From the NCBI GenBank assembly GCA_002690945.1, contig NZGL01000012.1:1-52749 (forward strand): a stretch of 52,749 bases of DNA. Direction: 5' to 3'. Position numbers and translations under genes: made by a program. Origin of the DNA: Gammaproteobacteria bacterium. GTDB lineage: Bacteria > Pseudomonadota > Gammaproteobacteria > Magnimaribacterales > TMED112. The notes under the pieces are model-generated. The model was not told the DNA's origin, ran no database searches, and was given only the letters and a program-made list of their open reading frames with translations. Shown piece after piece: positions 4,971-30,105 of the stretch; position 1 is the stretch's first letter; every line of letters starts with the position of its first letter.

Positions 4971-5479
4971 CAGTTATATTTATGGCCCTTTAAAATAATT
5001 AGAAGGTATCTTACCAACATTAAACCTATCATTGAAGCAAAAAATACCATTGACCATTCAGCAATATTTAGCCCTAAGAGTGACCAAACTTCTTCAGCGC
5101 ATTTGCTGCTGCCTTGAAAAACTTTTGCCATGGCATCAAAAAATGGATTCATATCAAATAATAGGTAAAAGGGCGTATCACAATAACCACCAGCTAATTC
5201 ATCTTTAGGAATATTTTGAAGATAAATTTGTCTTCCGCTTGCTGAGACACCAAATGCTAATGCAAAAATCCCTAAAAAATCAAAAAGAAATTTAAATTTT
5301 AGAACTAGCATCTTGAATAGGAATATAAAAAAGACTGCTTGAGCAGAGTATTTCTGTAATATACATAGATTGCATGGCTCAAGACCTACAATACTCTCAA
5401 GATAATACTGACTTCCAACAACAATTGCTGCACAAAAAGTTATGAAGAAATCTAAGTAGTTTTCAAAAAATGCTTTCAC
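4970..5479 (-). CDS. dsbB: Disulfide bond formation protein B family
   Basis: This inner-membrane protein reoxidises periplasmic DsbA and passes electrons to quinone. The protein is 169 residues with four predicted membrane helices. The first periplasmic loop has the CxxC pair C36 and C39 (PCNLC). A second pair of cysteines lies in the other periplasmic loop (GGYCDT and SSKCAEE). The start is GTG at 5477-5479, and the frame begins [11 protein letters not shown]. It heads the minus-strand operon with pckA, gshA and the MDR gene. A TATAAT box at 5488-5493 would place transcription initiation almost at the GTG. Its partner oxidase is at 8753. Confidence 0.92.
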
Positions 5480-5487
5480 TATTAAGT

Positions 5488-5493
5488 ATTATA
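5488..5493 (-). promoter_or_regulatory. -10 box for dsbB-pckA-gshA operon
   Basis: Perfect TATAAT on the minus strand. Seven bases downstream is about 5481, two bases before the GTG at 5479, so the transcript would have essentially no leader. No clear -35 match was identified. Confidence 0.5.
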
Positions 5494-5499
5494 TATATA
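5494..5499 (+). promoter_or_regulatory. -10 box for polA
   Basis: TATATA on the plus strand ends seven bases before the ATG at 5506, so the expected transcription start coincides with the start codon. It lies back to back with the dsbB -10 box on the other strand in a 26-base intergenic region. Confidence 0.45.
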
Positions 5500-5505
5500 A
5501 GTCCT

Positions 5506-8163
5506 ATGATATTTAGACCAGATGTAATTTTAATTGATGGATCATCATATATATATAGAGCATTTCATGCTCTGCCGCCTTTGAGCACATCAAAAGGAAA
5601 ACCAACAGGAGCTACACGAGGCTTTGCTTCAATGTTGCGCAAACTTATTTCTACATACCCAGGCGTACCAATGGTTATGGTTTTTGATGCAAAAGGACCA
5701 ACTTTCAGAAGTGACTATTACCAAGCTTATAAAGCTAATAGACCCTCTATGCCTAATGAGCTCAGAGTTCAGATTGATGATATTAAAAATCTTTCTAAAT
5801 TATTTAATTTTTCAATACAAGAAGTTGTGGGAGTTGAAGCAGATGATGTAATAGCAACACTTGCAGACAGATTAGGTAAAAAACAAAAAGTATTGATATC
5901 TTCCCCCGATAAAGACCTTACTCAGCTCGTAAAAAAGAATGTTATACAACATAACTCCGTATCAAATGAATTTTTTGATGAAAAATATGTAGAGGAAAAG
6001 TTTGGAGTTCTACCAAATAAAATTGCTGAGTTATTGGCACTAGTTGGAGATAAGTCTGACAACATCCCTGGTATTACAAAAGTTGGCAATAAAACAGCAT
6101 CTAAATGGCTTAATCAATATGGTGATATCGATAGTTTAGTTGCTAAAGCAGATGAGATAACCGGAGTTGTTGGTGAAAACTTAAGAAATGAAAAAAATAT
6201 TTTACAAAGAAACCTTTTTTTAGTTGCACTTAAAAAAGATCTGGATTTAGATTTAGAGCTAGATTCCTTAAATATACCTGAAGCAACTAATGATGAATTA
6301 AAAGATTTCTATAAAGGCTTGGAATTTAACTCATTCATAGAAGATAAAGTTGGAGAAAAAGTATCAAAAAATTATAGCTCTATCAAAAATTTAAAGCAGC
6401 TAAAAGAAATAGAAAAAGAGTTAGATGATTCAAAATGCTTTGCTTTTGATACAGAAACAACATCTTTATTGGCTCATGAAGCTGAATTGGTAGGGTTCTC
6501 TTTTGCTTTAAAAGGAAACACAGGCGTTTATGTACCAATTAGACATAATGAACAAACAGACTTAGATGCCGATGAAACAACTATATGGCTGAAAGCAGTT
6601 TTAGAGAGGAATCAACAAAAAATCGTAGGCCAAAATTTAAAGTATGATTTATCTGTACTTGAAAAATACGATATTGAGATAAACAAATTTTGTGCTGACA
6701 CGATGCTAATGTCTTATGCCATTAATAGCACTGCCACAAGACATAATCTTGATGCTTTAGCAGAACACTATTTAAATGTTCAAACAATAAAGTACTCCGA
6801 TGTAATGGGTAAAGGGGCCAATAAATATAAAAGCTTCAATGAAGTGCCCATAAAAGAAGCTACAAACTATGCTGCTGAAGATGCTGATATAACTTTTCAG
6901 CTATATGAAAAATTTAAAGAGCTAATAAATGAAGAAACTGAAAGTTTACTACAAGATATTGAGTATCCTTTAGTCAATGTTCTATTAAAAATGGAAAATA
7001 AAGGCGCATTAATTGATACAAAGCACCTCAAAAAACTTTCGAATGAATTTGGATCAAAGCTTATTGGTCTCACAAAAAAAATCCATGATATATCAGGTAG
7101 CGTATTTAATATCGATTCTCCAAAACAACTTAGTGAGGTTCTTTTTGAAAAAATGAAAATAGACTCTAAAGGATTGAAAAAGACCTCTACCGGATATTAC
7201 TCAACTTCAGAGTCAGTTCTACAAAAATTATCCCCTGAAAATGAGATTGTTAGGAATATTTTGGAGTACAGAACATTAGCCAAACTTAAGAATACTTATA
7301 CTGATAAAATCTCTGATATATGTGATGCAAATTCTAGAGTCCATACGTCTTATCATCAAGCAGTAACCTCTACTGGAAGACTGTCTTCATCAGACCCAAA
7401 TTTACAAAATATTCCAATCAGGACGAATGAAGGTATAACAATAAGAGAGGCTTTTATTGCCCCAAAAGACAAGAAGCTCTTAGCGATGGATTATTCCCAA
7501 ATTGAGCTTAGGCTAATGGCTCATTACTCTAAAGACCCAATAATGCTTAATTCATTTAGAAATGATGAGGACATACACAAAAGAACAGCAGCAGAAATAT
7601 TTGGAGTTGGAATAGATGATGTTGATGGCCAAATGAGGAGAAGAGCAAAAACAATTAACTTTGGTCTATTGTATGGAATGAGCGCTTTTGGACTATCTAA
7701 TCAACTTGAAGTTTCAAGACCTGAAGCCGATATTTTCTTAAATAATTATTTCGAACGATATTCTGCTGTTAAAAGTTTTATGTCAAAGATAGTAGAAGAA
7801 GCAAAAAAAGATAAATTTGTAAAAACTTTATATAACAGGAAAATACATGTCCCAAATATAGAAGCTGGCAACTATATGATGAGACAAGGATCAGAAAGAG
7901 CTGCTATCAATGGGCCTCTACAGGGCAGTGCTGCCGATATTATTAAAATCGCAATGATTAAGATTCAAGATTTAATTAAAAATGATAAGCCAGAAATTAA
8001 AATGATTTTACAAGTTCACGATGAACTAATTTTTGAAGTGCCTACTGATTTTACAGATGAAGATATAAAGCCAATTATTTCAATTATGGAAGAAACTACA
8101 AAAATTAGTGTTCCATTGAAGGTTGAGTATGGCTTTGGAGTTAATTGGAGAGAAGCACACTAA
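5506..8163 (+). CDS. polA: DNA polymerase I
   Basis: Repair and Okazaki-fragment polymerase, 885 residues, with all three domains. The 5'-3' exonuclease begins with VILIDGSSYIYRAFHAL. The 3'-5' proofreading domain keeps D315 and E317 (DTETTS), the ExoII N-x3-D (VGQNLKYD) and the ExoIII Y-x3-D (YAAEDAD), so proofreading looks intact. The polymerase domain has motif A DYSQIELR (D662), motif B RRRAKTINFGLLYG and motif C QVHDE (D839). I chose ATG 5506 over ATG 5470 because the family starts just before the VILIDGSS strand and the earlier start would run into dsbB. Its last 23 bases overlap the convergent engB. Confidence 0.97.
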   Translation: MIFRPDVILIDGSSYIYRAFHALPPLSTSKGKPTGATRGFASMLRKLISTYPGVPMVMVFDAKGPTFRSDYYQAYKANRPSMPNELRVQIDDIKNLSKLFNFSIQEVVGVEADDVIATLADRLGKKQKVLISSPDKDLTQLVKKNVIQHNSVSNEFFDEKYVEEKFGVLPNKIAELLALVGDKSDNIPGITKVGNKTASKWLNQYGDIDSLVAKADEITGVVGENLRNEKNILQRNLFLVALKKDLDLDLELDSLNIPEATNDELKDFYKGLEFNSFIEDKVGEKVSKNYSSIKNLKQLKEIEKELDDSKCFAFDTETTSLLAHEAELVGFSFALKGNTGVYVPIRHNEQTDLDADETTIWLKAVLERNQQKIVGQNLKYDLSVLEKYDIEINKFCADTMLMSYAINSTATRHNLDALAEHYLNVQTIKYSDVMGKGANKYKSFNEVPIKEATNYAAEDADITFQLYEKFKELINEETESLLQDIEYPLVNVLLKMENKGALIDTKHLKKLSNEFGSKLIGLTKKIHDISGSVFNIDSPKQLSEVLFEKMKIDSKGLKKTSTGYYSTSESVLQKLSPENEIVRNILEYRTLAKLKNTYTDKISDICDANSRVHTSYHQAVTSTGRLSSSDPNLQNIPIRTNEGITIREAFIAPKDKKLLAMDYSQIELRLMAHYSKDPIMLNSFRNDEDIHKRTAAEIFGVGIDDVDGQMRRRAKTINFGLLYGMSAFGLSNQLEVSRPEADIFLNNYFERYSAVKSFMSKIVEEAKKDKFVKTLYNRKIHVPNIEAGNYMMRQGSERAAINGPLQGSAADIIKIAMIKIQDLIKNDKPEIKMILQVHDELIFEVPTDFTDEDIKPIISIMEETTKISVPLKVEYGFGVNWREAH

Positions 8164-8713
8164 TTTCTTTCCTCAAATCAGTTATGCTACCTTGGTCTTT
8201 TATTGATAAAGACATTACATCTGAAAATATTTTTTTATTACGATCTTCGGCAATTTTCTTTTCAGATGCACTGACCTTATCAGATTTCGTTAGCACCACC
8301 ATAAAAGGAAGTTTAAGGTCTACTAACATTGACACCATTTCTAAATCTGACTCTTTCATTGGATGTCTTATATCAGTAAATATTAAAACTCCTATAAGGT
8401 TATCTCTATACTGAAAATACTTAGGGATTTCTCGTGACCACTCTTTTTTTTGTTCTTTTGAGACTCTCGAAAACCCATAGCCAGGAAAATCCACTATATA
8501 CCCTTGCTTATATTTAAAAAAATTAAATAACTTAGTTTTTCCAGGAGTCTTGCTTACTTTTGCAAGCTTTTTATTATTTGATAAAGCATTTATAGCTGAT
8601 GATTTACCAGCATTAGATGCCCCGACAAATGCAATCTCTTTTTCCTGATGATCAAGGCACTGGTCATACAAAGCCGCACTTGTCACAAACTCAAGATCTA
8701 AATTTGTTTTCAT
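8141..8713 (-). CDS. engB: Ribosome biogenesis GTP-binding protein EngB/YihA/YsxC
   Basis: Essential GTPase for large ribosomal subunit assembly in many bacteria. The protein is 190 residues. GTPase motifs are complete: G1 GASNAGKS at 31-38, G2 around KTPGKTKLFNFF, G3 DFPGYG at 75-80 and G4 TKSD at 142-145. The start is ATG 8711-8713. A perfect TATAAT on the minus strand at 8720-8725 puts the predicted transcription start at the ATG itself. The 3' end overlaps the end of polA by 23 bases, leaving no room for a terminator between the convergent genes. Confidence 0.95.
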   Translation of the reverse strand: MKTNLDLEFVTSAALYDQCLDHQEKEIAFVGASNAGKSSAINALSNNKKLAKVSKTPGKTKLFNFFKYKQGYIVDFPGYGFSRVSKEQKKEWSREIPKYFQYRDNLIGVLIFTDIRHPMKESDLEMVSMLVDLKLPFMVVLTKSDKVSASEKKIAEDRNKKIFSDVMSLSIKDQGSITDLRKEISVLLSN

Positions 8714-27596: not shown

Positions 27597-28815
27597 ATTC
27601 TTTCAACTAGGTTTTTTTATTGGGCTTATATTTTGGTCTATTTCAATATCTTGGGTATATGAGGCTATAAATTTTTATGGTGCAGGTAGTTTACTTAGCT
27701 TCTTTATGACAGCACTAATAATTTGCTATCTCTCTCTTTATTTTGGTCTATTTGGGATTGCAATAAAGTATTTTGAGAAATCTAAGTTAAAAATATTAAT
27801 CCTTCCAAGTATATTCTTTATATTAGAGTGGGTAAGATCATGGATGTTATCAGGTTTTCCCGGCCAGAATTTAGGAATTCTTTTTGATCACTTTTGGGGT
27901 CTATTGCCGATAATAGGGGTTGCTGGTACATCTTTTATAATTATTCTAGTTATCTGCATATTAGTTGAAAAATTAAGGATGGTTTATAAAGTACCCATCT
28001 CTTCTATCTTGATTCTTTTACTTTTATTTGGACCAGGACATTATCAAAATGGAGGCTCTGAAAAATTAAGAGTTTCAGTTGTTCAGCCTCTTAGCAATGA
28101 TATTTATCTTCTTAAAGAAATTACCAACAAAACTGATACAGATATCGTAGTTTGGCCTGAATCAGTAAGCTGGTATAACGAAGATATATTTAATGGGATT
28201 GAAGAAAAAACCATTATCGGCGGCTTCTTTAGAAAAGACGGAGAAAATACCTATGGATCAATAATAAATAACAGAACACAACATGTTTATGACAAAAGAA
28301 ATCTTGTGCCATTTGGTGAATTTCAACCTTTTGGGGATCTTCTTAGGCCTTTAAGTAATTTTTTTAATATTCCAGATTCAAGCCTTTCTCAAGGCTCTTA
28401 TGATCAAGATAAATCTGATTGGTCTGGTGTGGTTTGTTGGGAGATTGTTTTTAATAATACTTTTGTAAATAGGGTTAAAGGCACGGAATATATTGTGCAC
28501 ATTAGTAATGATAGTTGGTATGGTGATAGCATGCCTGAATTGCATCTCAAACATGCTCGAGCTAGAGCTGTAGAATCAAATAAATGGGTTGTTAGATCGA
28601 CTACAGATGGCATTTCACAGATTATTAGCCCAAGAAAAGGAGAATCATCAGAAAAAATTAATAAAGGGGAGGCTGGTTATATATCTCATGAAATAACATT
28701 AAATAAGAATGATACTTGGTATGTCAGAATGGGAGACCTTCCTTTATTAGCCTTCTCATTTATAACATTATTAATTACCTTAATAATAGATTTTAGGAAG
28801 AAATATGAAAGCTAG
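27589..28815 (+). CDS. lnt: Apolipoprotein N-acyltransferase, N-terminally short
   Basis: Adds the third acyl chain to lipoproteins in the inner membrane. The protein is 408 residues, about 100 shorter than E. coli Lnt. The nitrilase-like domain keeps the triad E191 (WPESVSW), K236 (YDKRNLVPFGEF) and C283 (VCWEI). The start is TTG 27589 inside ybeX, beginning at the helix matching the SWVY region of Lnt, so the first one or two membrane helices of the usual protein are missing. In this frame a TAA at 27565-27567 blocks an extension upstream. The nitrilase domain also lacks about 30 residues after its first strand. Confidence 0.92.
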   Translation: MIRFFQLGFFIGLIFWSISISWVYEAINFYGAGSLLSFFMTALIICYLSLYFGLFGIAIKYFEKSKLKILILPSIFFILEWVRSWMLSGFPGQNLGILFDHFWGLLPIIGVAGTSFIIILVICILVEKLRMVYKVPISSILILLLLFGPGHYQNGGSEKLRVSVVQPLSNDIYLLKEITNKTDTDIVVWPESVSWYNEDIFNGIEEKTIIGGFFRKDGENTYGSIINNRTQHVYDKRNLVPFGEFQPFGDLLRPLSNFFNIPDSSLSQGSYDQDKSDWSGVVCWEIVFNNTFVNRVKGTEYIVHISNDSWYGDSMPELHLKHARARAVESNKWVVRSTTDGISQIISPRKGESSEKINKGEAGYISHEITLNKNDTWYVRMGDLPLLAFSFITLLITLIIDFRKKYES

Positions 28816-29332
28816 AATATATCTACTATTTTTTTTCATACAATTAATTACAGCCATGGAAATAGAAATATCAATCACTAATCAAGAACTAATTCTTATA
28901 GATGATAATGGAGTGATTAAAATATATAAGATTTCATCATCAAAGTTTGGCGAAGGCTCAAAAGAAAATTCATTTAAAACGCCATTAGGAAAGCATGAAA
29001 TTAAAAAAATGATAGGAAAAAACGTGCCTGCTGGAGGAAGATTTATTGGCAGAGTGTATACGGGAGAAATATTTCCTATTTACTCAGATCAAGAAATATA
29101 TGTGAAAGAAGATGTAGTACAAAGTAGAATACTCTGGTTATCAGGCCTTGAAGAAAATATAAATAAGGGAAAAGAGATTGATTCATTCGCAAGATACATC
29201 TATATCCATGGAACCCCAGAAGAATGGCTACTTGGAACTAAAGCGTCAAAAGGCTGTATAAGAATGTCTAATCAAGATGTTATTGAATTATTTGATAAAG
29301 TTCACGAAGGAATGATAGTAAATATAAAATAA
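28805..29332 (+). CDS. L,D-transpeptidase (YkuD) family protein
   Basis: Periplasmic peptidoglycan or lipoprotein cross-linking enzyme. The protein is 175 residues with a signal peptide in the first 18 residues (RIYLLFFFIQLITA). The YkuD catalytic signature is present: H135 (YIHGTPE) and SKGCIRM with C151 as the nucleophile. It overlaps the lnt end by 11 bases. The exact reaction (3-3 cross-link, or attachment of lipoprotein) cannot be told from the sequence. Confidence 0.92.
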   Translation: MKARIYLLFFFIQLITAMEIEISITNQELILIDDNGVIKIYKISSSKFGEGSKENSFKTPLGKHEIKKMIGKNVPAGGRFIGRVYTGEIFPIYSDQEIYVKEDVVQSRILWLSGLEENINKGKEIDSFARYIYIHGTPEEWLLGTKASKGCIRMSNQDVIELFDKVHEGMIVNIK

Positions 29333-29396
29333 CTATCATTTATTTAACAAAATCACTTTCATTTATCTATATTAGATAGTAATATTATGAAATAAA

Positions 29397-29402
29397 TAAT
29401 AT
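29397..29402 (+). promoter_or_regulatory. Possible -10 box before the hairpin element
   Basis: TAATAT on the plus strand; seven bases downstream is 29409, at the first base pairs of the hairpin pair. No -35 match was found, so this is weak. Confidence 0.25.
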
Positions 29403-29407
29403 ATATG

Positions 29408-29458
29408 GTCAGTCTCTCCTCTCCCCCTGACTGACAGACTAGGGGCCACGGCCCCTAG
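29408..29458 (+). ncRNA. Two-hairpin structured element, candidate small RNA
   Basis: Two adjacent perfect inverted repeats in an otherwise AT-rich gap. Hairpin 1 pairs GTCAGTC (29408-29414) with GACTGAC (29429-29435) around a 14-base pyrimidine loop, TCTCCTCTCCCCCT. Hairpin 2 pairs CTAGGGGCC (29439-29447) with GGCCCCTAG (29450-29458), effectively an 8-bp GC-rich stem with a CACG tetraloop. No T-run follows it on either strand, so a classic terminator is unlikely. The loop contains CTCCT, the complement of a Shine-Dalgarno core. The strand is assumed from the possible -10 box and from the pyrimidine loop. Confidence 0.45.
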
Positions 29459-29471
29459 AAATTTAAGAAAG

Positions 29472-29555
29472 ATGGATAAATTTTTAGAAAACATAGAACT
29501 TTTTATACTTTTCGCAATATTCCTAGTATTAATACTGGGTATCTCTACCATATAA
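29472..29555 (+). CDS. Possible 27-residue single-helix membrane peptide
   Basis: ATG at 29472, TAA at 29553-29555. The peptide starts MDKFLENIE and continues as an uninterrupted hydrophobic helix LFILFAIFLVLILGISTI, long enough to cross the membrane. AAGAAAG just upstream could serve as a ribosome site. It lies 13 bases after the GC-rich hairpin and ends 19 bases before the glutathione peroxidase gene, which has its own -10 box. Short hydrophobic frames arise by chance in AT-rich DNA, so this is tentative. Confidence 0.35.
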   Translation: MDKFLENIELFILFAIFLVLILGISTI

Positions 29556-29574: not shown

Positions 29575-30105
29575 ATGAAGAAATTTCTTTTGTTTTCTCT
29601 ATTCTGCATATGTGGCCATGCATATAGTTGCAATGATCTCCTTGATACAGACGTAAAAATTTTAAATAAAGATGAATATAAAAATTTATGTGAATACTCT
29701 GAAAAAACTATTCTAGTTGTTAATACAGCTAGTAAATGTGGATACACTGATCAATTTGAAGGGTTAGAAGCATTACAAAGACGATATAGTAGTAATGGTT
29801 TTACTGTTTTAGGCTTTCCTTCAAGAAACTTTTTATGGCAAGAATATGATGATGAAGCAAAAGTAGGTGAGTTCTGCAAAGCTATGTATGATGTAACCTT
29901 CCCAATGTTTTCAATATCTAATGTAAAAAACACAACAAAACACCCATTTTATAAAAAATTATTTGAAATGACAGATGAAAGGCCCAAATGGAATTTTCAT
30001 AAATTTTTGATTACAAAAGAAGGTGAAATAAAAAGTTTTTCACATAAAGTTGAGCCCAACGATCCAAAAATTATTCAAGCAATTGAGGATTCTATTGAAT
30101 TATAG
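29575..30105 (+). CDS. Glutathione peroxidase-family thiol peroxidase
   Basis: Reduces hydrogen or lipid peroxides, probably in the periplasm. The protein is 176 residues with a signal peptide (KKFLLFSLFCICGHAYS). The peroxidatic cysteine is C55 in TASKCGYT; W139 and N140 (KWNFHKF) complete the active site. C101 (EFCKAM), 46 residues after C55, matches the resolving cysteine of thioredoxin-dependent members. The FPCNQF motif appears as FPSRNF. It overlaps the convergent rpiA by 31 bases. A lipobox around C19 (AYSC) is possible but not convincing. Confidence 0.92.
   Translation: MKKFLLFSLFCICGHAYSCNDLLDTDVKILNKDEYKNLCEYSEKTILVVNTASKCGYTDQFEGLEALQRRYSSNGFTVLGFPSRNFLWQEYDDEAKVGEFCKAMYDVTFPMFSISNVKNTTKHPFYKKLFEMTDERPKWNFHKFLITKEGEIKSFSHKVEPNDPKIIQAIEDSIEL

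Follow-up and report, generated by a model that had tools for sequence, protein, structure and literature searches.

The DNA behind a YkuD-type L,D-transpeptidase gene of SAR86, an abundant, streamlined, uncultivated lineage of the ocean, contains a short GC-rich double hairpin with a C-rich loop. Is this element the gene of a small RNA (sRNA), a leader of the genes behind it, or only a terminator? The window, by which we mean the whole stretch of 52,749 nucleotides that was analysed, has the element in the gap between the transpeptidase gene (28805-29332, plus strand) and a glutathione peroxidase-like gene (29575-30105, plus strand). Neither Rfam nor the open-access papers that were searched describe this RNA or another SAR86 sRNA.

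Structure of the element

The features of the locus are as follows.

29350-29407, plus strand: promoter region, which in relatives has TATTGATA (-35 TTGATA) and a TATTAT/TATAAT-like -10
29408-29435, plus strand: hairpin 1, stem GTCAGTC (29408-29414) / GACTGAC (29429-29435), loop TCTCCTCTCCCCCT (29415-29428)
29415-29427, plus strand: seed UCUCCUCUCCCCC in the loop of hairpin 1, the presumed mRNA-pairing site, identical in 20 of 20 congeneric genomes that bear the element
29439-29458, plus strand: hairpin 2, arms CTAGGGGCC (29439-29447) / GGCCCCTAG (29450-29458)
29472-29555, plus strand: conserved small open reading frame (sORF) MDKFLENIELFILFAIFLVLILGISTI, 27 residues with a single transmembrane segment, between the sRNA and gpx
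29575-30105, plus strand: gpx (glutathione peroxidase-like, PF00255), the downstream neighbour and a locus marker in two SAR86 families

The two adjacent, perfect stem-loops described in an earlier sequence-only reading were confirmed at 29408-29458, and the 5' end of the sRNA presumably lies near 29407/29408. RNA folding of the element gives both hairpins with an energy of -26.2 kcal/mol (z = -3.65), and none of 200 dinucleotide shuffles is equally stable. Of 2000 shuffled versions of the gap with the dinucleotide content preserved, only 20 had tandem perfect stems of 7 bp. The base composition is indeed unlike the surroundings, with 65% GC in the element against 33% in the window, where equally GC-rich 51-mers make up 0.008% of all 51-mers. 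Hairpin 2 is followed in the window by AAATTT and not by a T-run.

The 27-residue sORF is probably a neighbour and no part of the sRNA. Its codon differences between the closest species (3:0, 4:2 and 4:2) are mostly synonymous, and the sORF thus probably encodes a real small protein. A second sORF of 34-35 residues lies ahead of it in L014-L016 and L018-L020, and a relic of this sORF seems to be present in L017 and L021.

Conservation in the genus

The element is found in 19 of the 20 other congeneric genomes, and in the distant ones the alignment narrows to the two hairpins. The covariance search in relatives that the earlier reading had proposed finds, with model R1, one strong copy each in 20 of the 21 genomes of the genus, the single genome lacking a match being a 60% complete assembly. 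Common to all 20 available sequences of the genus are GTCAGTC-TCTCCTCTCCCCC, a GACTGAC-type 3' arm (with G-U variants) and GGGGC-NNNN-GCCCC. The seed is unchanged across the copies of f1, the SAR86 family of the window, and the flanks diverge. With respect to the two species closest to the window (L003 and L004), 49 and 48 of the 51 positions of the element are kept, compared with 58-60 of the 70 positions upstream. The loop had been proposed to expose an anti-Shine-Dalgarno sequence, and this is supported by its being the best-conserved part.

Rfam has no match for the element at the gathering threshold, nor at E<=5 (f1) or E<=1 (f3 and f4). Specifically, the window, f1 and f3 copies do not match the models RF02344, RF01719, RF02837 and RF00021. 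A viral origin was rejected, as the exact hairpin-2 pattern is absent from viral contigs.

Promoter and terminator signals

The -35 sequence TATTGATA is situated 37-40 nt upstream of GTCAGTC in 17 of 20 f1 copies. It is missing only in the window, which has GTAATA, and in its two closest species (L003 and L004). In SAR86 family f3, TTGATA was present between -34 and -37 in each of the 16 copies examined, most of which also have a TATAAT-like -10; altogether, 33 of 36 copies have TTGATA, and its distance is nearly constant. At the other end, L014-L020 have T6-T9 after hairpin 2, which mostly reads GGGGC-UUCG-GCCCC, an arrangement corresponding to an intrinsic terminator. The T-runs are shorter in L005-L013, and L003 and L004 have AAATTT as in the window. 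In its ancestral form, hairpin 2 is a Rho-independent terminator. Because a T-run is common in the relatives, and the commoner state is assumed to be ancestral, its lack would be a derived condition of the window's lineage. The earlier remark that there is no T-run is thus right for the window but does not extend to the relatives with T6-T9.

A promoter and a terminator signal belonging to the element itself are therefore both present in the relatives and both degraded in the subclade of the window, where the hairpins and the seed nevertheless remain intact. The disappearance of the -35 box and the T-run suggests that the RNA in this subclade is probably made in small amounts, from a less active promoter, or cut out of a longer transcript of the ykuD-gpx region.

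Copies in a second SAR86 family

Model R1 gives weak matches of the correct shape in family f3. With the refined model R2, matches were obtained in most f3 genomes, at E values between 1e-14 and 1e-5 and frequently with 2-3 copies per genome. The loop core CUCUCCCCC is kept in most of these copies while stem 1 varies on both arms together, the variants being GTCAGCA/TGCTGAC, ATCAACA/TGTTGAT, ACCAACA/TGTTGGT, AACAGCA/TGCTGTT and GCTAGCA/TGCTAGC. With the GTCAGTC/GACTGAC stem of f1 included, compensatory, two-sided changes are seen at six of the seven pairs of stem 1; they fill 16 cells against 3.7 in shuffles, a value reached by 0 of 500 shuffles. The count was made on the arms only, joined by an artificial constant linker, and is hence independent of the alignment. 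The full alignment is in agreement with it.

The f3 copies are found at three kinds of locus, for which the gene names are our own reading of the translated sequences. At locus (i) a divergent FadJ-like gene precedes the copy, which is followed by a 28-30-residue sORF and gpx. At locus (ii) it stands alone, convergent with sbcB, and several such copies adjoin an azurin-like gene. At locus (iii) one copy stands alone, adjoining an alternative-oxidase gene. At the sbcB and alternative-oxidase loci examined, no open reading frame was found behind the copies. In the gpx-locus copies L098, L142, L145-L148, L150, L154, L155, L160 and L161, the two hairpins are joined by a linker with the motif (C)TCTG(G)AA, which the sbcB copies lack.

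The suggestion of the sequence-only reading that this may be an undescribed small RNA of the clade is supported by the conservation, the covariation, the promoter and terminator of the relatives and the lack of an Rfam match. On this comparative evidence, the element probably represents a real sRNA family in two SAR86 families, unlisted in Rfam.

Candidate targets

Against the start regions of two genomes, G012 and G007, the loop has no clear advantage in duplex energy over shuffled C/T-rich loops, and 35 conserved gene pairs have complementarity to the loop compared with 10-33 for the shuffled loops. There is no clear excess, and selective targeting is thus without statistical support from these counts.

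A single site stands out by its conservation. The gene of a 75-residue protein with two transmembrane segments has CATGGGGGA directly before its start in 18 of 18 congeneric genomes having the gene. The pattern CATGGGGGAN{2,4}ATG is present in 17 of the 21 genomes of the genus, each time with a match at the start of this gene, and a control pattern gave 1 hit in the 21 genomes. G009 has the same site with a longer spacer, and in the three remaining genomes the gene is absent from the assembly. The leader of the gene is CATGGGGGAATTATG, and its conservation reaches beyond the complementary 9-mer. Slightly more than half of the f1 sRNAs have the full 9-nt complement of CATGGGGGA, UCCCCCAUG; UCCCCC is found in all of them, and the core of the pairing that does not vary is 6 bp long. 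All four SAR86 families have the protein, for which Pfam gave no match. From this pattern we infer that its gene is the best target candidate.

In all four SAR86 families the gene is one of a tandem pair, encoding two-transmembrane proteins of 75 and 77 residues (G012:C1:254010-254521, which is L229; L282 in G007; G000:C1:56453). A terminator, GCATGGGGGGTAACCCCCATGC, is situated between the two genes in G012 and G007, and the leader of the 75-residue protein gene could base-pair with one arm of this terminator.

The proteorhodopsin gene has CGGGGGAAATTATG in G012 (C1:683143) and G007 (C1:643946). Its unusual all-G ribosome-binding site, GGGGGAAATTATG, was seen in five congeneric genomes (these two and three others). 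Proteorhodopsin was rejected as a conserved target, since the GGGGGA ribosome-binding site is present in only 5 of the 16 genomes of the genus with the gene. The TonB-receptor gene and other single targets were also rejected, their complementarity being weaker or lost between G012 and G007.

A tblastn search with one E. coli query, run without a positive control, found no Hfq gene in G012 (complete) or in 92% of G007 (920 kb), which fits the Hfq-independent sX13.

The polA locus and known C-rich-loop sRNAs

The polA-engB gap is the locus of Spot 42, sX13 and ErsA (PMC3771888, PMC8575079). In the window polA (5470-8163) and engB (8141-8713) overlap by 23 nt (8141-8163), and the classical site of polA-locus sRNAs is therefore absent. 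Membership in the sX13/ErsA/Spot 42 group by position was rejected, the window copy lying outside polA-engB. In the f4 genomes of one genus, R2 has a match between convergent polA and engB, which reads CCGTCAGCA-TCTCTCTCCCC-TGAAAAT-TGCTGACGG and has the stem GUCAGCA/UGCUGAC, also seen in f3. In other f4 genomes and in f2 genomes this gap is occupied by C-rich-loop hairpins of a different sequence (L192-L196, L198-L204), and the GAACTT-N16-GTCTAA-like motifs ahead of the f2/f4 hairpins resemble, in our reading, sigma-E promoters. Similar hairpins are found in the polA-engB gaps of several unrelated gammaproteobacteria, and for three such gaps (L165, L173 and L187) Rfam gave matches to anti-hemB and ErsA that stay below threshold. 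A relocation of the sRNA from the polA locus is possible; it is unproven because the f4 score is modest and the stems differ in other f4 genera.

Homologues elsewhere in the Gammaproteobacteria were rejected, the inspected class-level R2 matches being mostly terminator hairpins. One locus of another gammaproteobacterium, L134 (G267:C57:36757-36828), has an AACGGA..TCCGTT hairpin with the loop TTCCCCTCCCCTCCCTTA and a GC-rich terminator hairpin with a T-run, between sodB-like and parC-like genes. The architecture is the same and the kinship is unproven.

Among the described sRNAs, sX13 of Xanthomonas, encoded at polA, is Hfq-independent and uses C-rich loops (CCCC/CCCCC) on G-rich motifs near starts (PMC3771888), a likeness drawn by description. 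It has three C-rich hairpins beside polA, whereas the SAR86 RNA has one C-rich hairpin and a terminator, at gpx/sbcB. In ar14/NfeR1 (RF02344) of the Rhizobiales the anti-Shine-Dalgarno loop is ultraconserved while the stems diverge, and mRNAs are silenced at the start region (PMC10746234). This RNA is alphaproteobacterial and has three hairpins, each with CCUCCUCCC, in contrast to the one loop, CUCCUCUCCCCC, of the SAR86 RNA. The likeness to alphaproteobacterial sRNAs noted earlier holds as a functional analogy only, because the host is SAR86, a gammaproteobacterium. Pseudomon-1/ErsA (RF01719) and anti-hemB (RF02837) are of the same general kind, but the SAR86 f1/f3 copies fit neither model. 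Spot 42 (RF00021) is situated at polA-engB, where the f4 copy of SAR86 lies; its sequence differs and it is Hfq-dependent (PMC3771888), and the SAR86 RNA has no Rfam match.

Interpretation

The element is probably the gene of a compact, trans-acting SAR86 sRNA that uses its C-rich loop to block ribosome-binding sites. Such an RNA would be about 51-60 nt long. Hairpin 1 would present the seed unpaired, and hairpin 2 would serve as transcription terminator and 3' stabiliser. In selected mRNAs, the seed would find its partner in Shine-Dalgarno regions rich in G or in purines (GGGGGA, GGAGAG, GAGGAG), and the pairing would block ribosome entry and translation, as with sX13 or ar14/NfeR1, probably with no need of Hfq. 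Pairing of C-rich loops at ribosome-binding sites is experimental for sX13 (PMC3771888) and NfeR1 (PMC10746234). For the SAR86 RNA, transcription, pairing, repression and targets are inferred, and its function as an anti-Shine-Dalgarno RNA is suggested by analogy.

It is unlikely that the element is instead a cis-acting leader or attenuator of the 27-residue sORF and gpx, with hairpin 2 as a leaky terminator before the sORF start and hairpin 1 in control. The gpx locus has the layout for it, as almost all genomes have the sORF start a short way after hairpin 2, and the loss of the T-run and the -35 box in the window's subclade is as expected if the element had turned into a leader. The main evidence against it comes from the copies at sbcB and the alternative-oxidase gene, which have the same seed, stem and promoter and stand alone, with no open reading frame behind them; the element is thus not always upstream of one gene family. 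Furthermore, the seed is kept as a sequence, and not just as structure, though the ribosome-binding site of the sORF changes. The structured leader considered by the sequence-only reading is accordingly disfavoured as a general account, while a leader or co-transcribed form is possible in the window's subclade.

That the element is no more than a transcription terminator or a REP-like palindromic repeat, without a part in regulation, is very improbable. Hairpin 2 alone is like ordinary SAR86 terminators, some of which the model also matches (L096, L099 and L105), but neither a terminator nor a repeat needs the invariant 13-nt loop and the compensating stem changes of hairpin 1, and a promoter is conserved upstream. 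Genomes of the genus have a single strong copy each, unlike a dispersed repeat, and a REP or palindrome repeat was rejected on this ground. An RNA that sponges or titrates a partner other than mRNA, such as a protein binding C-rich RNA, a ribosomal component or another sRNA, is equally improbable. The very rigid seed and the target counts, which do not clearly exceed those of shuffled loops, would suit such a role; however, the nearest analogues described so far work at the start regions of mRNAs (PMC3771888, PMC10746234), and a conserved complementary site lies before the 75-residue protein gene.

The trans-acting sRNA can be placed in a more specific scenario, which is speculative and, taken as a whole, doubtful. 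It would be a minimal, Hfq-free sRNA with one seed, descended from a polA-locus sRNA that is kept in f4, and moved to gpx/sbcB in f1/f3 with its own promoter. It would act chiefly on the SAR86-wide two-transmembrane protein through the CATGGGGGA leader, and proteorhodopsin, with CGGGGGAAATTATG in five genomes, would be an additional, lineage-specific target.

The study of sX13 raised the question of whether the C-rich-loop sRNAs of the polA locus form one widespread class conserved in structure (PMC3771888), and the SAR86 RNA bears on whether they do. A covarying RNA with a single seed and a defined candidate target, in a host apparently lacking Hfq, offers a concrete test of post-transcriptional control in small genomes.
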